NCBI RefSeq assembly: GCF_923079645.1
Contig: NZ_CAKLPY010000003.1
Span: 186,001-250,000, forward strand
Origin: Emticicia aquatica
GTDB taxonomy: Bacteria; Bacteroidota; Bacteroidia; Cytophagales; Spirosomataceae
Length of the DNA stretch: 64,000 nucleotides
Direction of reading: 5' to 3'
In this document: one piece after another, positions 2,243 to 10,185 of the stretch
How positions within the stretch are numbered: the first letter of the stretch is position 1
Layout of the letters: each line of letters starts with the position of its first letter
Made by a program: the position numbers and the translations under genes
Notes under the pieces: generated by a model
What the model saw: only the letters and a program-made list of their open reading frames with translations
Told to the model about the DNA's origin: nothing
The model's database searches: none

Positions 2243-3580
2243 TTAGGCTACTCTCATAATTGGTTTTCTGAAATGGTCATGCTCCAGCAATCTTTGGGCG
2301 GTTTCTTCACCCGTAATTTTGATATATTTCAAAAACGAACTTTCGGTTTTGTGCGAGGTAATACGCATAATATCAATCGTTGAGATACCCGCCAAATACG
2401 CATTTGTAGCAAAACTCCTTCGTGCTGTATGCGTACAAAGTTTCTGCCATTTCTCGAAGGTCTTTTTAACTTTTAGCCCTCCAACTGTTTTGGCTATCTG
2501 TACGGAGTCGGTTAGTTCTATTAATTGCCCGATTTCCTTTAAATAATCGTTCATTCGCTGGTTACTTATTGCCCGTGGAGGTACGCCACCGTATTTATTT
2601 AGAATAGCCTGTAATTGCGGGTTAATAGGAATAGAGACTTGTACGCCCGTTTTTTGAGTAAATACTGTCAAGATACGCCCGTCATGCGTAATATTGTCGG
2701 GTGTTAAATGCGAAAAGTCCGAAAACCTCAAACCTGTATAACAGCCTATCAAAAATAAATCTCTTGTTCGGTCGAGACGTGGGTTATTACTAAAGTCGTA
2801 ATCGAATAGCGTTTGGAGTTCCTCATCGTTGAGGTAAATATTAACAACCTCCTCGGAGGTCTTTTTGAAATCGGGGTGGCGAAATATCAAATTAGAGTGC
2901 AAACCATCATTATACGACTCTTTGATAAATATCTTAGTGTTTTTTATGGCTGTGCCTATGCTATTTTTTGCGTAGTTTCTCTTGGTAGTAAGAAAAGTTA
3001 TGAATTTTTTATAAAAATCAATATCTAATTGGTCGAACTTGGTGCGTTTATAAACCTTTGAAAAACCTTGCAGTAGTTTGTACGATGTTTCGTATTGTTT
3101 ACAAGTTCCTAAAGTATAACGGTCGTTGCTCTTACTGAGTCTAATACCGTTTTTGCATTCGTCAATGTATCGTTTTGCATATTCGACCAAATCGGTTTCT
3201 TTTTTGCTCTTTTTCGTTACTTTTTCGGGGTTAAATTCTTTGTCGAGTTCTTTGCGGAAAAATTCTAAATTAGCATTGAGATTTTCACGCTCTACATAAG
3301 AAATGATTTTTGAGATACTGCTATTAAATTTTCCTAATTGGAGGTTTATACTTTTAGCAATACCTTTTTGTTTGGTATTGATTTTATTACCATTGTTATC
3401 TATGCCTGACTCTAAGGCACGCATATTTTTATTATCCCAATGTTCGGTTTTAATTTTTTCGCCCGTAGTGTATTTAAGGCGTTCACCATTTTGCAGCCTA
3501 TAAACTAAATTAATAAGTGTTTCGGAGGTTGCGGAGGAATCTTTGAGGTTGAAACGTACCTCGTTTTTGTTCTTTGCCAT
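2243..3580 (-). CDS. Tyrosine recombinase / integrase of a mobile element
   Basis: Site-specific recombinase of the Bacteroidota type. An N-terminal arm-binding domain (about residues 5-100) is followed by a SAM-like core-binding domain (about 130-235) and a catalytic domain. The full active-site set is visible: R285 (T-G-L-R-F), K310, H384 and R387 (H-T-A-R-R), H410 (S-H-K) and the nucleophile Y419. I chose ATG 3580 rather than the longer frame from TTG 3613 because the latter would fall inside the -7 box of the promoter; 445 aa is a normal length. It leads the operon with the NTase and the two 80-residue genes. It marks one end of an integrated element that extends to the left of the window. 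Confidence 0.92.
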   Translation of the reverse strand: MAKNKNEVRFNLKDSSATSETLINLVYRLQNGERLKYTTGEKIKTEHWDNKNMRALESGIDNNGNKINTKQKGIAKSINLQLGKFNSSISKIISYVERENLNANLEFFRKELDKEFNPEKVTKKSKKETDLVEYAKRYIDECKNGIRLSKSNDRYTLGTCKQYETSYKLLQGFSKVYKRTKFDQLDIDFYKKFITFLTTKRNYAKNSIGTAIKNTKIFIKESYNDGLHSNLIFRHPDFKKTSEEVVNIYLNDEELQTLFDYDFSNNPRLDRTRDLFLIGCYTGLRFSDFSHLTPDNITHDGRILTVFTQKTGVQVSIPINPQLQAILNKYGGVPPRAISNQRMNDYLKEIGQLIELTDSVQIAKTVGGLKVKKTFEKWQKLCTHTARRSFATNAYLAGISTIDIMRITSHKTESSFLKYIKITGEETAQRLLEHDHFRKPIMRVA

Positions 3581-3610
3581 TGGTTTTGATTTGGTTGGTT
3601 TGGTCAATAG

Positions 3611-3640
3611 CAAAGTTAATAAAAAAAATGACCCCTACAA
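3611..3640 (-). promoter_or_regulatory. Promoter of the integrase operon
   Basis: Read on the minus strand, TTG (3640-3638), a 19-base spacer and TAACTTTG (3618-3611) match the Bacteroidota sigma-A consensus. Transcription would start close to 3605, leaving a short leader before ATG 3580. An inverted repeat (3630-3652) overlaps the -33 side. Confidence 0.75.
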
Positions 3641-3665: not shown

Positions 3666-3778
3666 TATATCTTTATTTTGTTTAATTATTCTTGGTAAAG
3701 TACAATTAGGTATTTTTCATAAGTTATTGATTATTAGTATTTTATGTAAATTTCAAGAAAGTAAGAAATAGATAGTTA

Positions 3779-3795
3779 TGTTCCCTTCGGGAACA
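3779..3795. repeat. Perfect short hairpin between the element and the chromosome
   Basis: TGTTCCC and GGGAACA form a perfect 7-base stem with a TTC loop. It lies between the integrase promoter and the terminator of the downstream-facing operon, in the stretch where the element-chromosome junction should be. It could be part of an attachment site, a REP-like palindrome, or an extension of the adjacent terminator. Confidence 0.4.
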
Positions 3796-3797
3796 CA

Positions 3798-3831
3798 AAA
3801 AGCCTTCAAAATTTAACTTTTGAGGGCTTTT
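3798..3831 (-). terminator. Terminator of the six-gene operon
   Basis: Two 14-base arms (3798-3811 and 3818-3831) with one mismatch and a 6-base loop sit just after the stop of the BtaA-like gene. On the minus strand the stem is followed by a T-run. Confidence 0.75.
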
Positions 3832-3835
3832 GATT

Positions 3836-4924
3836 TTATAAACCTGCTTTCACTTTTCCCACACAAAAAGTATAAATAGCCGAAAGATCTTCGTCGCACA
3901 GTTGTTGCTCTAAAATATTTTCTCTTTCTATCCGCTTGTTTAGTGTTTCTGGGTTTCTTTTTACTAAGAAAAACCGCTCACAAAACTTTATTTCTTGGTT
4001 GGCGTTATTGATGATTTTTGTCCAAATTTCATCATAGATTTGCGTATCGGCATACGACGAAAAATCAGATAATGAGTAGGCGGTTATTGATTCAGAAATT
4101 GTTTTGTCATCGAGTACATTGAGTAATGAATCGGTGATAATTTCAATTTTATGTACTTGATTCTTTATACCTTCAAAGTTTTCTTCTCGGAGATGAATTG
4201 GCAAAAGACAATCAGGTTGATATTCTCCATAAAACAAAAGATTGGCAAAATGATTTTTTCTCAATAAATGAGTATTTGCCAAATGATTCATTCGAGAACT
4301 CATATATTCATACACATCAAATTCTTGTGGAATTAATAATGCTCCTGGCTCTTTTACTATTTTTGTCCATAGAAATCGATTAGAAATGAGTTTTAAAAAG
4401 AAACGCCATACCGCATTATTCCAATGATTTGTCCAAAATACTTGTTGGTCTTTCAATGTTTCGGATGCCATCAATTTTTTTGTTGCTTTTCCTCTGAAGA
4501 AAGCGGCTTTTGCTATTGTTCTGAGAAATAACTCCCAAGTTCCGCAATATAAAAGGCCATTTTCAATCAAATTAAAATGCTTATCCCAGTATGATTTAGC
4601 TTCTATTGACAACAAATTATTTAATTTATTGTATAATTCTTTTCGTGTAAAATTGCTTTCTAAGCCAATAAAAGACTTGAATTCTGCATAATTAAGCGAT
4701 TTATATGCGGCGATTTTCAATAGCAAAAGATAATTTTGTGTAGCATTAAAATCGACACTTAGTATTTTTTTTGGGCTATCAATGAGTAAATCGAGGGGTC
4801 TTGCACCGCTGCCCGTAATACACAAAACAGTGTCATCGGAGGTCAAGCATAAAGCTTTTCTTTCCGATTCGCTGTCTTCATTACAGGCCGAATAATTTAT
4901 TTTTTCAAAAAATGAATTTGCCAA
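3836..4924 (-). CDS. BtaA-like 3-amino-3-carboxypropyl transferase (DUF3419)
   Basis: 362 residues of the BtaA/DUF3419 family. BtaA moves the 3-amino-3-carboxypropyl group of S-adenosylmethionine to the hydroxyl of diacylglycerol in betaine-lipid synthesis. The SAM-binding block is visible at residues 34-63 (C-I-T-G-S-G-A-R-P-L-D-L-L, then V-D-F-N at 57-60, Q-N at 63-64). No BtaB N-methyltransferase is present nearby, so a betaine lipid is not the obvious product. It is the last gene of the operon, 22 bases after the Rieske gene, and is followed by a good terminator. In this setting it may attach a homoserine-type head group to the product of the ketosynthase pathway; that is inference. Family assignment is fairly secure. 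Confidence 0.8.
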   Translation of the reverse strand: MANSFFEKINYSACNEDSESERKALCLTSDDTVLCITGSGARPLDLLIDSPKKILSVDFNATQNYLLLLKIAAYKSLNYAEFKSFIGLESNFTRKELYNKLNNLLSIEAKSYWDKHFNLIENGLLYCGTWELFLRTIAKAAFFRGKATKKLMASETLKDQQVFWTNHWNNAVWRFFLKLISNRFLWTKIVKEPGALLIPQEFDVYEYMSSRMNHLANTHLLRKNHFANLLFYGEYQPDCLLPIHLREENFEGIKNQVHKIEIITDSLLNVLDDKTISESITAYSLSDFSSYADTQIYDEIWTKIINNANQEIKFCERFFLVKRNPETLNKRIERENILEQQLCDEDLSAIYTFCVGKVKAGL

Positions 4925-4946
4925 GTGTAGTGTTAAATTTTATAAT

Positions 4947-5984
4947 TTATAGTGTCAAATCAATTTTTTGAGTAGAAGATTCTTCACGTGATTCTATATT
5001 ATTAATCTTATTGTTTCTTATTTTTTTTACCTTATTGTGCATCGCATCATAATCTATATTCTGGTCGGGTTTCGCTCTGAATAATTGTTGATTTGCGAAC
5101 TGTTTTTGAGTGATAATATAATCTTGTATTAAAACTTTTTTTGCCAGAAAAGGAATAAGCATTTTTATCAAATTATTGAACCATTTGAACTGAAAAGAAA
5201 GCCTAACAAAAGCAATCGTTTGCTCATCTTTTAAAGGTGTACAAGCAATAAATGCTTGAAAACGATGAATTTTATTGATATAATAATTTACTCGCACTAG
5301 GTTTGGAAGTAAAAACTCATCGGTGTGTGAAACCGACAGATTTCCCCCTAACATCCAATCAAGCCCTAAGCCCACTTTTTCGTTGGTTTCCGCATAAGAC
5401 ACATGCACAGTTTCGCTGGTTTGTAAAATCGTAATCGAGTGCTTTACTTTTTTATCATTATCTCTAATCAATTTATCATGAACCATAGGCGTATGGGTGG
5501 CATCCATGAAATTTTCTACTAAAAGTTCTTCATTAGTCTCGAAAATCATGGAAGTTTGGTAATGTTTCCAATTTTTGCCAGCAACTTGTAATAATGGTTC
5601 GGGAGAATGAAAACTTTCATTTTTAGTGTCTAAATATATCCAAATGAAACCATTTTGTTCAATAATTGGGTAAGTGTCAACTTTACATTTCATTTTTTGA
5701 ACCAAATGTTGCGAACTCGGAATATCAATTAAATGGCCATTTTCATTATATTTCCATCCATGATATTGACATAATACATGGTTTTTATCAAAATCACATA
5801 CTTCTAGAGGTGCTTTTTTGTGCGAGCAAACATCCAACAAGGCGTGTATTTGTAAATGCTCATCTCGCCAAATAAGTAAAGGAATTTGGTAAAGGTTTCG
5901 CTTCAAAGATTTGCCTTTTTTTAGCTCGCTCGACAAAGCTATTACATGCCAATATTTTATTAATCCCCCGATTTTATTAAACAT
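4947..5984 (-). CDS. Rieske non-heme iron oxygenase
   Basis: 345-residue aromatic-ring-hydroxylating-type oxygenase alpha subunit. The Rieske 2Fe-2S ligands are C53-x-H55 and C72-x2-H75 (C-S-H and C-Q-Y-H-G-W). The mononuclear iron site is N158-F-M-D161-x2-H164-x4-H169, with the usual later carboxylate not pinned down. Size and layout resemble vanillate demethylase or choline-monooxygenase-like oxygenases that need a separate reductase, and none is encoded nearby. It lies 46 bases after the ketosynthase gene and 22 bases before the BtaA-like gene, in the six-gene operon. It probably hydroxylates or desaturates the pathway intermediate. The C-terminal 40 residues are polar and variable. Confidence 0.9.
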   Translation of the reverse strand: MFNKIGGLIKYWHVIALSSELKKGKSLKRNLYQIPLLIWRDEHLQIHALLDVCSHKKAPLEVCDFDKNHVLCQYHGWKYNENGHLIDIPSSQHLVQKMKCKVDTYPIIEQNGFIWIYLDTKNESFHSPEPLLQVAGKNWKHYQTSMIFETNEELLVENFMDATHTPMVHDKLIRDNDKKVKHSITILQTSETVHVSYAETNEKVGLGLDWMLGGNLSVSHTDEFLLPNLVRVNYYINKIHRFQAFIACTPLKDEQTIAFVRLSFQFKWFNNLIKMLIPFLAKKVLIQDYIITQKQFANQQLFRAKPDQNIDYDAMHNKVKKIRNNKINNIESREESSTQKIDLTL

Positions 5985-6030
5985 TATCTTATCAAAGAAG
6001 GTGTTTTAAAATGATTTTTATACAAAAACT

Positions 6031-7026
6031 CTAAAATTTCAACAAAAGTCCACCAATTGAAAATCCTGCGGCGGTGCCAACAATAAAGCAGATATCGCCT
6101 CTTTTTATTGCACCTGATTCAACTGCATCATGAAAAACAAGCGGAATTGATGCCGCAATACAATTGCCATAAGTTGAAAGATTTCCTAACACTTGATTTT
6201 CTTTCACATGATATAAACTTGACAAAATTGAAACGCCCAATTTGGAAGCTTGATGTGGAATAATAGCATCGGTTTCTTCCATTGAAATAGGTAAATCTTC
6301 GAAAAAGTTATCGATAAATTCGGGCAATTTATTTTTAGCCAAACGCAAGAGTTTTCGACCATTCATGGCAAATGAATGCAGCTCAGGGTCATACGGATTA
6401 TCTTTAAAAAAAAGTTTCATGCCGCCACCTTTAAATGTCGAATCATAAACCCCTTCCGAATACGTTTTCATGTTTCCTTTGATGTACGCAGAATCCGAAT
6501 CTGAGTCGAACTGTAAGATTGCCGCAACTGCTCCATCGCCAAAAAGCGTTAAAGTTTCCCAATTGCTTGGGTTTAAGCCAGTTGAAGCAATTTCACTGCT
6601 GACAATAATAATATTCTTATATTTTTTACCATCAAGCAAACTCGAAGCAATTTCAAAAGCACTCACAAAACTCAAACAACTTGAATCAACATCTAACGCA
6701 GGAATATTGACCGACATTCCATCTTTGAGTTCACTTTTAATGATGCTCGATTGACTCGGCAACGGATAGTCAAAGCCTGCACTTGCCGAAATGAGCAAAT
6801 CAATGTTTTCTAACTTCATTTGGCATTTTTCTAATGCTCGTTCAATGGCCTGAGCTCCCATATAACCAATCGTCTCAAATGTTATATGATGCCTTGATTG
6901 AACACCAGAATATTTTTCAGACCAACCCAACGGGAGGCCATATTTTTGTTCTAAATCAGCTGATAAAACTTCTTGAGGGAGATATTTCCCGAAACCTACT
7001 ATTTTAATTGGTTTTCCTAACATCAT
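6031..7026 (-). CDS. 3-oxoacyl-ACP synthase III (KAS III / OleA-type ketosynthase)
   Basis: 331-residue thiolase-fold condensing enzyme. The catalytic triad is complete: C117 (D-S-S-C-L-S-F), H258 (I-P-H-Q-A) and N288 (Y-G-N-C). It is more like the stand-alone pathway ketosynthases (FabH/OleA group) than the fatty-acid FabH genes found next to plsX. Two ATGs are adjacent at 7026 and 7023; either gives nearly the same protein. Its start overlaps the end of the adenylate-forming-enzyme gene by 23 bases, so the two are translationally linked. In the operon it would make the carbon-carbon bond, joining two acyl chains or extending an acyl primer; the substrate cannot be read from sequence. Confidence 0.9.
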   Translation of the reverse strand: MMLGKPIKIVGFGKYLPQEVLSADLEQKYGLPLGWSEKYSGVQSRHHITFETIGYMGAQAIERALEKCQMKLENIDLLISASAGFDYPLPSQSSIIKSELKDGMSVNIPALDVDSSCLSFVSAFEIASSLLDGKKYKNIIIVSSEIASTGLNPSNWETLTLFGDGAVAAILQFDSDSDSAYIKGNMKTYSEGVYDSTFKGGGMKLFFKDNPYDPELHSFAMNGRKLLRLAKNKLPEFIDNFFEDLPISMEETDAIIPHQASKLGVSILSSLYHVKENQVLGNLSTYGNCIAASIPLVFHDAVESGAIKRGDICFIVGTAAGFSIGGLLLKF

Positions 7027-8296
7027 TCTTTATTCGTCTAAGTTTATTTCCTTTAATGGTATGATTATGAGTGGATTGCGTTATTTTTACTCCAAAAACA
7101 TCGTTTTGATTGAGTAAATAATGTACCGAAGCCAGAGCCAATTGATACGATTTTTCATGCTGACTTTTGATATAAAGTAGCAAATGGTTGAGTTCAGTTT
7201 GAATTAAAGCATAATCATTGATAGCATCATCTGACAGAATAATTGCTCGCCTAAAAAAATCAGGGAAAATTTTAACAGTCTCATTTTTAGTGTTTTTAAA
7301 TACCAAAATATCATCAGACCGACCTTCAATGGCTTCAATGGCAATAAATTTACTGCCACACAAACAGTTTTCCTTTGCTTGAATAATATCATTTAATTCG
7401 TACCTAACAATTGGCTGAGATTGTCTTTTTAAATCAGTAATAATAGGATGAAATCTCTTTTGTTCTTGGTCAATATATTTTTTTTCAATTATCAGAAAAT
7501 CCTCATTGAAGTGAAGTGTGCCGTTTTTACACGAACTAGCCAAAAAACCTTCTGTGCATTGATAAACTTGGTGAATGGTTTGTTTAAAAATGCGGCTTAA
7601 ATAGTCTTTGTCTTCGGGCGTTAAAACTTCAGCTACCGAAATCACTTTGTTGGGTTTTATTACTAATTTATTCGTTTCAATCGCATTTGCTAGCTCAATT
7701 AACATACTTGGTTGTGCTACCAAAATACTTGGCTGTAAGGCATTTAAACGCTTTATATGCTCATCCACAGGATTGAGTAAATCAAAAAAATAAAATTGTA
7801 AGAATTTTGATTTTACCGAGTCATAAAGGTTGCTGTTGGCTCGTAAAAAAAACGCAATACTTCGTTTTTTTAGTGAAAACCCAAGCACTCTATCCAATAT
7901 CAATGCAACCCAATAGGCTCTTTCTTTTTCACTTGCTAAAAAAACGCCTCTATTTCCGCTTGTTCCCGACGATAAACCAACTGTAATGCCCGAAACTTTT
8001 GGTGAAAAATTTCGTGTTTCCTCCGATTTTATAGCTACTTCTAAGGCTTTTTTTAGTTGAATATTAACCATATTAATCGCATCAAAATTGGCCATAAATA
8101 TAGCTTTATTGATGACGGGGAAATCTTCAAAACTACAGTTTTTTTGTGCAAATGGTTTGTAAAATAAAGTGGTCGAACAATGTCTGATAAGCTTTTTTAT
8201 CATGTTATTCCTGACAAAACTCACGTTATGGAGATAAAGCCATTTCGAAAGTTTTATTTCTGCTAAATAATATAAAATGGATAGCTTAAAGAGCAT
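7004..8296 (-). CDS. F390-synthetase-like adenylate-forming enzyme (PaaK/CoF synthetase group)
   Basis: Adenylate-forming (ANL superfamily) enzyme of the phenylacetate-CoA ligase / F390 synthetase-related group. The P-loop-like S-S-G-T-S-G-N-R-G segment at about residue 130 is the AMP-binding signature, followed by the E-K-E-R-A-Y-W block seen in this clade. A later C-L-C-G region and E-G-R-S-D-D fit the hinge. The longest frame opens at TTG 8356 inside the upstream gene; I prefer ATG 8296 (430 aa), which overlaps the upstream stop by 11 bases. It probably activates a carboxylate as an acyl-AMP or thioester for the pathway; OleC, the beta-lactone synthetase of olefin synthesis, is in the same superfamily but a different clade. 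Confidence 0.82.
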   Translation of the reverse strand: MLFKLSILYYLAEIKLSKWLYLHNVSFVRNNMIKKLIRHCSTTLFYKPFAQKNCSFEDFPVINKAIFMANFDAINMVNIQLKKALEVAIKSEETRNFSPKVSGITVGLSSGTSGNRGVFLASEKERAYWVALILDRVLGFSLKKRSIAFFLRANSNLYDSVKSKFLQFYFFDLLNPVDEHIKRLNALQPSILVAQPSMLIELANAIETNKLVIKPNKVISVAEVLTPEDKDYLSRIFKQTIHQVYQCTEGFLASSCKNGTLHFNEDFLIIEKKYIDQEQKRFHPIITDLKRQSQPIVRYELNDIIQAKENCLCGSKFIAIEAIEGRSDDILVFKNTKNETVKIFPDFFRRAIILSDDAINDYALIQTELNHLLLYIKSQHEKSYQLALASVHYLLNQNDVFGVKITQSTHNHTIKGNKLRRIKNDVRKTN

Positions 8297-9134
8297 TGAG
8301 GTCGTAATTATTTGAAACCAGAGCAGTAGTTGTTGCCGAGCAATGCGTCGGTACAATAATTACCTCAGGAAATTTTTTATGAAAAAGGTTTACTTTCAGA
8401 AGACTATCCTTGAAATCTTTCCAAGAATCAAAGAATAATCGCACGATTGATGGCGGAAGCAATAAATCAATATAAGTTTTTTTGTTCCAACAAGCATCTG
8501 CAATCAAAAAGTATTGTTGTTTTTGAGTCTTCAATTCTACGCCAATTTGTCCTGCGGCATGGCCAGGTAAATCATAAATAAATAACGAATCATCGCCAAA
8601 CAAGTCATATTTTTTTCCAAATATATCATCATTGATTGGCGAAGAAAATGTCTCAATGATTTTTAGTTTTTCCTCAAAATTTTGCGGAATAAGGTCTTTC
8701 AAAATAGCTTTTGTAAAGCCCCAAAACGAACTAATTTCTTTATACTGTTTATACGCTGCCTGCGAACAGTAGAATGTTGCGTCATTAAAATCTTTTAAAC
8801 CACCTACGTGGTCAGCATGAAAGTGAGTAATAATTACGTGTTTTATGTCGGAAGGCTCTAAATTAAATTGTTTCAATTGAGCTTTAATTTCGTCTTTTTC
8901 CGTTACAAATACTTTGGTGAGATTAGCGTAAATTTTATTGGGATAAGTTTTTGTGCAGTCATAAAATCTTGTTGTATAACCAGTATCGTATAATATCCAG
9001 CCATATTCTGGGTGTTGAATAAGACCGAATAATGCTTGAAATTTTATTTCTTTATTTGCTCCATTTCTTATGGTATGACTTTCTTTTGATGTGCAGAAAC
9101 CAGCATAACCAAGATATAATTTAACTTCTTTCAT
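8286..9134 (-). CDS. MBL-fold metallo-hydrolase (lactonase-like)
   Basis: 282-residue metallo-beta-lactamase-fold hydrolase. The di-metal motif H104-x-H106-x-D108-H109 is intact (T-H-F-H-A-D-H-V-G-G), with later ligands in L-P-G-H-A-A-G, I-A-D-A-C and P-T-H-C. The overall plan is close to the N-acyl-homoserine lactonase group and to other cytosolic MBL hydrolases; no signal peptide is present. It overlaps the reductase gene upstream by 14 bases and the adenylate-forming enzyme downstream, so it is an integral operon member. It could open a lactone or cleave a thioester made by its neighbours. Fold assignment is secure; substrate is not. Confidence 0.88.
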   Translation of the reverse strand: MKEVKLYLGYAGFCTSKESHTIRNGANKEIKFQALFGLIQHPEYGWILYDTGYTTRFYDCTKTYPNKIYANLTKVFVTEKDEIKAQLKQFNLEPSDIKHVIITHFHADHVGGLKDFNDATFYCSQAAYKQYKEISSFWGFTKAILKDLIPQNFEEKLKIIETFSSPINDDIFGKKYDLFGDDSLFIYDLPGHAAGQIGVELKTQKQQYFLIADACWNKKTYIDLLLPPSIVRLFFDSWKDFKDSLLKVNLFHKKFPEVIIVPTHCSATTTALVSNNYDLNAL

Positions 9135-10110
9135 TTTGAATATACCAGTTTACAAATTCTTCGATTGCTTCATTAGTTGATATTTTAGGCGTATAACCTA
9201 ATAATTTTTGTGCCTTTGAAATATCCATCGTAAATGATTTTGCTAAAATGCCTACACCGTAAGTTGTAAGAGCGGGTTCAGCATAGTTTGTCAATTTTGC
9301 TTTTAATTCCATTATTTGAGAAACCAATTTCACAATTGAATAAGGGACTCTTTGGTTAGACATTCTGTAGCCCAAAAGCGAAAGTACTTTATCAATTGTC
9401 TCCCAAAGTTTCACAGGTTGACCATTTGTGATATTATATGTTTGATTAATACCTTCAAAACCCACAAATAATGATAACTCAATTGCATCTGCCACATTGG
9501 CGAGCGAAGTCAAATCTACAATATTTTTTCCATCGCCAATTATTTTTAGTTTTCCTTCTTGAAATGCCCGAATTAATCGAGGCATAATGATGGTATCTCC
9601 TCGACCAATCAATGCTCGTGGTCGTAAAATAATGAATGGAATGCCCGAATTTTCTATTTCTATTTCGGCTTCGTATTTTGTTTTGGAATAAGCGTTAATG
9701 AATTTTTTTGGCAATTCGTCCGATTCGCTCACATCAAATCTATCTTTACCATTAAAATATAAACTTGGCGTCGAAACATATACAAAACGCTTGATATGAT
9801 GTTTCTTTGCTGCCTTTATAAGGTTTTTCATGGTAAATAAATTAGCTTTTTCAAAGGCCGAATACTTTCCCCAAGGCGATGAAAGTGCCGCTGCATGAAC
9901 AATACAATCTACTTGTTTGACTAATTCTGAAACAAAATTCTCCTCTTCTAATTCTCCAAGTTCATAGCTTACTTTGGAATGTTCAACAAAATGTGTTGGT
10001 CTAATAATTCGTCCAGTTGCAATAATTTTCTCTATTTGAACATTCGAAATCAACTGCTCTAACGTTCGATAACCCAAGCCTCCAGTTGCTCCTGTAAGAA
10101 GAATTTTCAT
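9121..10110 (-). CDS. NAD-dependent epimerase/dehydratase, OleD-like (3-beta-HSD family)
   Basis: 329-residue extended short-chain dehydrogenase. The nucleotide-binding motif T-G-A-T-G-G-L-G spans residues 6-13, the V-S-T-P-S block covers about 112-116, and the catalytic pair is Y141-x3-K145 (Y-S-K-T-K). The V-S-T-P-S-L-Y-F segment and the late F-T-M-D-I-S-K-A motif are typical of the 3-beta-hydroxysteroid-dehydrogenase-like group that includes OleD, which reduces 2-alkyl-3-ketoacids. The longer frame starts at TTG 10128; I prefer ATG 10110 because the protein then begins directly with the first beta strand. First gene of the six-gene operon, overlapping the MBL gene by 14 bases. Confidence 0.85.
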   Translation of the reverse strand: MKILLTGATGGLGYRTLEQLISNVQIEKIIATGRIIRPTHFVEHSKVSYELGELEEENFVSELVKQVDCIVHAAALSSPWGKYSAFEKANLFTMKNLIKAAKKHHIKRFVYVSTPSLYFNGKDRFDVSESDELPKKFINAYSKTKYEAEIEIENSGIPFIILRPRALIGRGDTIIMPRLIRAFQEGKLKIIGDGKNIVDLTSLANVADAIELSLFVGFEGINQTYNITNGQPVKLWETIDKVLSLLGYRMSNQRVPYSIVKLVSQIMELKAKLTNYAEPALTTYGVGILAKSFTMDISKAQKLLGYTPKISTNEAIEEFVNWYIQNERS

Positions 10111-10185
10111 AATAATGTTAAGTGCCAATTCAATTTAATTGAACCAATTTTTTAGCTAAAAACCTTGTTTTTTCAGAATGAAACA

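Follow-up and report, generated by a model that had tools for sequence, protein, structure and literature searches.

The DNA analysed here (the window) is a stretch of 64 kb from an Emticicia aquatica contig (NZ_CAKLPY010000003.1), and this study concerns six open reading frames (ORFs) on its minus strand that form a tight operon at positions 3836-10128. The operon begins with an extended short-chain dehydrogenase/reductase (SDR), a 3beta-HSD/OleD-like reductase assigned by NCBIfam and Pfam (9121..10128; TTG start, the ATG at 10110 being likelier). It continues with a metallo-beta-lactamase (MBL)-fold hydrolase assigned by NCBIfam, Pfam and solved relatives (8286..9134), an adenylate-forming, PaaK-like enzyme of the family TIGR02304, 'F390 synthetase-related' (7004..8356; TTG start, ATG possible at 8296), and a ketoacyl synthase III (KAS III)-type ketosynthase placed on the MxnB/CorB side of its family by family match, structure search and tree (6031..7026). 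We refer to these four as core genes. The last two are accessory genes, one for a Rieske non-haem iron oxygenase which by its family matches is a probable hydroxylase (4947..5984), and a 'head' gene for a DUF3419 (BtaA-like) protein which by family match and tree is a probable aminocarboxypropyl transferase (3836..4924; TTG start). The first three junctions are overlaps of 14, 11 (from the ATG start) and 23 bases, and at the last two the genes are separated by 46 and 22 bases.

The family assignments differ in strength. The F390-like protein lies well over the curated TIGR02304 cut-off (447.2 bits vs 251.9, NCBIfam), has no Pfam match and has PaaK-type relatives, and the DUF3419 match is strong (E 3e-62, 211 bits vs a Pfam cut-off of 28.2). 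The Rieske protein carries Rieske and VanA_C domains, the KAS matches ACP_syn_III and the MBL protein Lactamase_B, its nearest solved relatives being acyl-homoserine lactone (AHL) lactonases. For the SDR the best NCBIfam model is OleD, at 165.7 bits and far below the cut-off of 580. Residues whose catalytic roles we assume from their families, the KAS triad excepted, are almost invariant among the relatives, in row counts that take in four genomes twice (L017-L020 are the same contigs as L028-L031): Y147 and K151 of the SDR in 84/84 rows, H104, H106, D108 and H109 of the MBL protein in 82/82, G131, T132, E269 and K438 of the F390-like protein in 93/93 with D308 in 92/93, and C53, H55, C72, H75, H164 and H169 of the Rieske protein in 18/18. 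The KAS triad C117-H258-N288, which the original prediction had called intact, is unchanged in all 83 rows; a Cys-His-Asn triad is described for MxnB in PMC5724707. F390-synthetase genes also appear in tables of PMC9823363 and PMC5467263.

When the F390-like protein was scanned against genome contigs, 302 relatives were obtained and the best 80 loci were kept, a sample that leans towards the query. SDR, MBL, F390-like and KAS genes occur together on one strand within 6.5 kb in 71 of these 80 loci (5 of them from Emticicia), and this four-gene core is seen in Bacteroidota, Bacillota, Campylobacterota and Pseudomonadota. The nine loci without the full core fall into three groups: in L041, L044 and L054 the contig ends close to the match, in L062, L078 and L095 the F390-like gene stands alone, and L066, L073 and L105 are one labelled core gene short. 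Most Bacteroidota loci show the order SDR-MBL-F390-KAS, and most of those from Bacillota KAS-(ATP-grasp)-SDR-MBL-F390. After five near-duplicate loci had been dropped, the pairwise distances of the four core proteins were found to correlate over 72 loci (r 0.85-0.91; for each pair none of 500 permutations reached such a value), a correlation that shared species history alone would also raise. The distribution is patchy: of 395 genomes sampled from the phylum, 6, counting the window's, have TIGR02304 at E 1e-50 or better, and 72 plasmid records hold a relative. Among 5,426 complete E. coli genomes, a stretch of seven genes is matched by 672, in 671 over at least 80% of its length, with the order KAS-SDR-MBL-F390-PAP2_3-fatty-acid hydroxylase-desaturase (L108:3001-9882 in E. 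coli ABU 83972). This relative adjoins narI in two records, one chromosome and one plasmid, and in L108 lies between narI and tRNA-Tyr. As a separate observation, F390-like genes also occur without the rest of the core nearby in L025 and L195 (both Pseudomonas plasmids), L078 and L095, L195 having just an MBL gene alongside; the family may work outside the core pathway too, or these stray genes may be remnants.

The genes that accompany the core vary in a regular manner. Counting on the core strand within 6.5 kb, the 71 full-core loci comprise 41 with an ATP-grasp gene, 10 with a sulfotransferase, 7 with a BtaA-like gene and 13 with none of these, and no locus has two together, where shuffles of the same loci gave a mean of 9.68 doubles and none of 20,000 was as low. 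In the 31 loci of Bacteroidota and Balneolota the result was again 0 doubles against a shuffle mean of 4.29, with 8 of 20,000 shuffles as low. The exclusion persists when all 80 loci are considered at any distance and on either strand (BtaA-like 7, ATP-grasp 44, sulfotransferase-like 14; doubles 0). Three Rhizobium/Shinella plasmids (Rhizobiaceae) have the order KAS-SDR-MBL-F390-BtaA-X, in which the BtaA-like gene occupies the ATP-grasp position of Paraburkholderia, with X, a GNAT-type protein, behind it in both. Other arrangements include a Sulfotransfer_3 gene beside the core on the opposite strand in Paracoccus and Ketogulonicigenium, a core with X, Rieske and ATP-grasp genes in Rhizobium sp. 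BT03, and a core with a 530-residue protein without Pfam match in Pseudomonas sp. FeN3W. Fatty-acid hydroxylases and desaturases also adjoin other cores, and 5 other loci have an Abhydrolase family (c3) within their operon stretch. The PAP2_3 protein of E. coli has weak NCBIfam matches, including phosphoinositol-dihydroceramide synthase and undecaprenyl-diphosphatases, and its activity may be head transfer or that of a phosphatase. Protein X has no Pfam match in its G049 version, a weak GNAT match in Paenibacillus and no credible match by sequence to the PDB. The predicted model of the L048 version (pLDDT 85.9) has 130 structure matches at E 0.001 or better, the best Foldseek matches being A-PGS, L-PGS, MprF and FemX (E 2.5e-7), of which the first three are enzymes that aminoacylate lipids.

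The DUF3419 proteins associated with the core form a type of their own. A methyltransferase (Methyltransf_25, Pfam), which we take to be BtaB-like, stands beside the canonical DUF3419 genes of Bacteroidota in 29 of 30 fetched loci. Such a neighbour is found in none of 8 distinct core-type loci, the window included, and in none of the three Rhizobiaceae loci; the 14 entries without a BtaB-like ORF resolve into these 8 loci, four duplicates and two entries without a BtaA-like gene (L016, L033). A search for an unlinked BtaB in the window's genome (94% complete) gave weak matches only, the best with 31% identity over 114 residues (44.5 bits). In a tree from which the four duplicate rows and a fused row (L160) were left out, core type (8 rows) and canonical type (29 rows) split at 100/100. 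When the Rhizobiaceae proteins were included, ten canonical rows dropped and L160, L199 and L200 added as 'other', the Rhizobiaceae joined the core type at 86/75, with the canonical and two other rows apart at 96/92. Of the positions invariant in the core type, 25 have the same residue in 90% or more of the canonical rows, among them G40, D58 and N60 of what is presumably the S-adenosylmethionine (SAM) loop, and 17 are switched, a different residue standing there in 90% or more of those rows. This pattern fits the same donor chemistry with a different acceptor, and on the separate clade, the missing BtaB neighbour, the weak BtaB matches in the genome and the 17 switched positions we reject membership of canonical BtaA. 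The 'BtaA-type' label given originally holds at the superfamily level and does not extend to the clade or to its switched residues. DUF3419 occurs in 46 of the 395 sampled genomes, far more commonly than TIGR02304 and mostly without it. By sequence, the DUF3419 protein of the window has nothing credible in the PDB. Three further DUF3419 genes were seen in other settings: L160:365-3294 (genome G187) encodes a 620-residue fusion of a PEMT-like methyltransferase domain with DUF3419, which may be a betaine-lipid enzyme in a single protein, and has a GNAT-like gene behind it; L199, on a Deefgea plasmid, is accompanied by an iron-containing redox enzyme and speD; and L200, on a Roseinatronobacter plasmid, by UbiA, a PEP-binding protein and an AMP-binding protein.

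The ketosynthase had been termed 'OleA-type', a label that we drop. Its nearest solved structures are MxnB (4v2p, E 2e-61) and CorB (4yuc, E 1.5e-60), followed by FabH entries, whereas the row holding 3s23, named as OleA in PMC5724707, reached E 1.5e-13 in the same structure-sequence search. According to PMC4578411, a glutamate from the partner subunit (E117 in OleA, E105 in PpyS) deprotonates the acyl chain, and MxnB and CorB have V94 there. At this position, located through V94 of MxnB in an alignment without an OleA sequence, the core KAS proteins have isoleucine (44), leucine (38) or valine (1) and none of 83 rows has a glutamate, which together with the far stronger MxnB/CorB match rules out OleA identity. 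In a tree built from 26 of the 83 core KAS, MxnB, CorB and four KAS-like proteins encoded in the window's own genome (two over the FabH cut-off), the core and MxnB/CorB are joined apart from the own-genome rows at 99/99, and the core KAS are themselves a clade at 88/93; this tree is without OleA, PpyS and foreign FabH, its FabH being the own-genome rows, and the MxnB/CorB stretches were taken from the search alignment. PMC4578411 places MxnB/CorB within the FabH clade, and PMC5724707 has them condense chains held on carrier proteins. Kinship to these enzymes suggests that the core KAS condenses two chains. As the glutamate is missing, one of its substrates would be a beta-ketoacyl thioester, as for MxnB/CorB, or it would use malonyl like FabH. 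The genome of the window also holds two more KAS III-like genes close together (G000:C7:73043-75948; L179, L177), one of them over the FabH cut-off.

Within the genus, the same six genes in the same order are present in 4 of 10 other Emticicia genomes, with identities among carriers ranging from 74-77% (DUF3419) up to 87-90% (KAS). The original prediction of a six-gene minus-strand operon with the overlaps and gaps given above agrees with the ORFs, their families and this kept order. Scattering of the genes in relatives, which had been named beforehand as the outcome that would speak against the unit, is not what Emticicia contains. Of 11 Emticicia genomes, the window's included, 5 have TIGR02304 (over cut-off) together with DUF3419 and 6 have neither, absence being judged by these two marker families; one of the six, G003, has a weak 26-bit TIGR02304 match. 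A chance neighbourhood is ruled out by the kept order, the joint presence or absence of the markers and the recurrence of the core. The exact set as a unit is kept in the genus, and the wider unit, which the original prediction did not recognise, is the four-gene core with exchangeable modules in several phyla. In the four other carriers the cluster is flanked by an aspartyl-protease-like gene on one side and an M16 peptidase gene on the other. The flanks of non-carriers were read in five of the six genomes (G001, G003, G007, G008 and G010, with G002 left out): in G010 the two genes are adjacent, 580 bases apart, G007 likewise has the genes that come next on that side but no M16 ortholog, and in G001, G003 and G008 the aspartyl-protease-like gene lies in a different neighbourhood.

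What the sequences show directly is the core and the correlated divergence of its proteins, modules that exclude one another, intact active sites, and presence or absence in the genus. On this basis we propose, with an even chance of being right, that the operon encodes one form of a modular pathway for polar lipids in which the heads can be exchanged. A hydroxyl is a common acceptor of BtaA-like, sulfotransferase and MprF-like enzymes, and from this we infer a hydroxyl-bearing lipid backbone. In the proposed scheme the KAS would join two acyl units and the SDR would reduce the resulting beta-keto group to a hydroxyl, while the MBL hydrolase and the adenylating enzyme would release and re-activate the carboxyl end, in either order. 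The Rieske enzyme would add or alter a hydroxyl. In what would be the likeliest last step, the DUF3419 enzyme would move the 3-amino-3-carboxypropyl group of SAM onto a hydroxyl, giving an amino-acid-type head. In relatives the head position would be served by an ATP-grasp ligase, often with an MprF/FemX-like tandem-GNAT transferase, or by a sulfotransferase. Lipid-type enzymology with capping by DUF3419 had been expected originally and keeps its place here; the same is true of the view that the product is probably not an olefin, with a KAS lacking the OleA glutamate and an OleD model under its cut-off. More specifically, though only tentatively, the core may define an undescribed class of polar lipids, in which a common glycerol-free hydroxyl backbone would be made by the four genes and the heads swapped by lineage, the Emticicia version bearing a homoserine-ether head from a BtaB-independent DUF3419 family.

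Several points weigh against the proposal of a modular polar-lipid pathway. The pathway is known here from its genes, from which every substrate, reaction, order of steps and the product, including its lipid nature, are predicted. The KAS is without the glutamate that lets OleA and PpyS condense two plain acyl chains, and the pairing of an MBL hydrolase with an adenylating enzyme seems in part futile. Because the loci cluster by phylogeny, the shuffles overstate their independence, and with one Emticicia kept in the Bacteroidota/Balneolota subset the shuffle mean falls to 3.11 doubles with 123 of 20,000 as low. The 13 core loci without any counted module on the core strand within 6.5 kb include 8 without any labelled accessory gene at all; among the 13, L036 and L060 have a sulfotransferase-like ORF elsewhere in the locus, and L053 an Acyl_transf_3 gene. 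Since the Rhizobiaceae loci have both the BtaA-like gene and X, one is not a substitute for the other. In the phylum sample, only the window's genome and G103 have both TIGR02304 and DUF3419, in G103 on different contigs, and the AlphaFold model of the DUF3419 protein (pLDDT 79.6) matches solved SAM-enzyme folds weakly (best E 9.5e-3).

The relationship of the KAS with MxnB and CorB leads to a possible, though doubtful, alternative, namely that the core product is a small diffusible metabolite, pyrone-like or otherwise, serving as a signal or antibiotic, and that the accessory enzymes decorate this in place of a membrane lipid. The core KAS is sister to enzymes that make pyrone antibiotics (PMC4578411), the patchy spread and plasmid carriage would suit secondary metabolism, and the MBL protein resembles AHL lactonases. 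However, no polyketide synthase (PKS) is found in the window operon, while MxnB/CorB use carrier-bound chains (PMC5724707); in other loci, whose accessory genes are partly annotated, a PKS is conceivable. The core reductase would moreover remove a keto group, and the accessory genes that are annotated are largely of lipid type, such as fatty-acid hydroxylase, desaturase, PAP2_3 and the MprF-like fold. An ordinary betaine or homoserine lipid, with DUF3419 acting on diacylglycerol like BtaA and the other genes supplying or modifying acyl chains, would explain the strong DUF3419 match and the 25 kept positions, but appears unlikely in view of the separate clade, the 17 switched positions and the BtaB-like partner, present in nearly all canonical loci, absent from core-type loci and represented by weak matches only in the window's own genome. 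The tie of this DUF3419 type to the same core in two phyla also speaks against it.

The remaining two alternatives concern the condensation itself. A variant of OleABCD would proceed by head-to-head condensation, reduction, formation of a beta-lactone by an ANL-superfamily enzyme, and decarboxylation or hydrolysis to an olefin or a free beta-lactone. The Ole enzymes belong to parallel classes (a thiolase-fold ketosynthase, an SDR, an ANL enzyme and a hydrolase), and OleD is the best-scoring NCBIfam model for the SDR. The 'OleD' label proposed earlier stands to that extent, as the nearest named model, and no further, at 166 bits against a cut-off of 580. The isoleucine, leucine or valine in place of the OleA glutamate, the weaker match to OleA than to MxnB, an ANL enzyme from TIGR02304 with PaaK-type relatives, a hydrolase of another fold and head modules without an evident place in an olefin pathway make such a variant very improbable. 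Least probable of the readings considered here is a FabH-like elongation, in which the KAS would use a malonyl thioester and a fatty acid activated by the F390-like enzyme, with SDR and MBL yielding a free 3-hydroxy fatty acid for subsequent capping. The absence of the PpyS-type glutamate and the place of MxnB/CorB in the FabH clade (PMC4578411) are in its favour, and its simple order of steps employs all four core enzymes. Yet the cassette would be redundant, as fatty-acid synthesis already yields 3-hydroxyacyl chains, and the window's genome has two FabH rows over cut-off. The nearest named relatives of the SDR, OleD and sterol-4-carboxylate dehydrogenase, also use branched beta-keto or beta-hydroxy acids.

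If the polar-lipid class is real, its heads would be aminocarboxypropyl, amino acid, sulfate and perhaps phosphoryl groups, in parallel to glycerophospholipids and sphingolipids, and its core would be carried in at least four phyla and by about 12% of complete E. coli genomes. Genes would then have been named for a class of lipids so far overlooked in many bacteria, among them E. coli, the orphan adenylating family TIGR02304 would gain a pathway, and within DUF3419 the betaine-lipid enzyme would be set apart from a second family that uses a different acceptor. Since some Emticicia genomes carry the cluster and others do not, the genus lends itself to a natural comparison through which the product could be found. 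Open-licence PubMed Central papers yielded no account of the cluster or its core, and none of the E. coli seven-gene version in searches aimed at it; most subscription journals are outside this set, so that a description may exist there. Within that open literature, the claim that the exact set matches no characterised pathway stands. The enzyme classes are all known, and it is the arrangement and the second DUF3419 family that look new.

As regards the surroundings of the operon, terminator-like inverted repeats lie just 3' of the DUF3419 gene on the minus strand (3776..3831), where a single terminator is plausible. One terminator had been predicted, and the repeats agree with this, while the scan that found them gave 4 sites against a mean of 3.6 in shuffles, a number not above chance. 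Beyond the repeats, outside the pathway, a tyrosine recombinase gene (2243..3613, minus strand) takes the place of the M16 peptidase gene of the congeneric carriers; the M16 ortholog is missing from the window's genome, where the best match has 27% identity. The gene next after the recombinase (1767-2231) matches the PADLOC candidate PDC-M63A (E 2e-19). Among the operon genes themselves the MBL alone matches PADLOC models, weakly (LmuA, 26.8 bits), and an anti-phage defence function was rejected. A tRNA scan of the 64-kb window found no tRNA.

The operon can finally be compared with four known systems. It has the enzyme classes of OleABCD, and its SDR is nearest OleD; it differs in a ketosynthase on the MxnB/CorB side without the OleA glutamate, in TIGR02304 as the ANL enzyme, in an MBL hydrolase where no OleB-type alpha/beta-hydrolase is present in the operon, and in the attached polar-head genes. 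The MprF/aminoacyl-PG synthases and FemX are the best match for the predicted fold of protein X, which lacks a credible PDB match by sequence and whose gene is not part of the window operon. With the myxopyronin and corallopyronin enzymes MxnB and CorB, the nearest solved ketosynthases, which condense two beta-ketoacyl chains to an alpha-pyrone, it shares the Cys-His-Asn triad and a hydrophobic residue for the OleA glutamate, but the operon has a reductase, a hydrolase and a ligase instead of a PKS. With BtaA/BtaB betaine-lipid synthesis it has in common the DUF3419 domain and the presumed SAM-loop positions, whereas the core type is a separate clade with switched conserved positions and no BtaB neighbour, set inside a KAS cassette.

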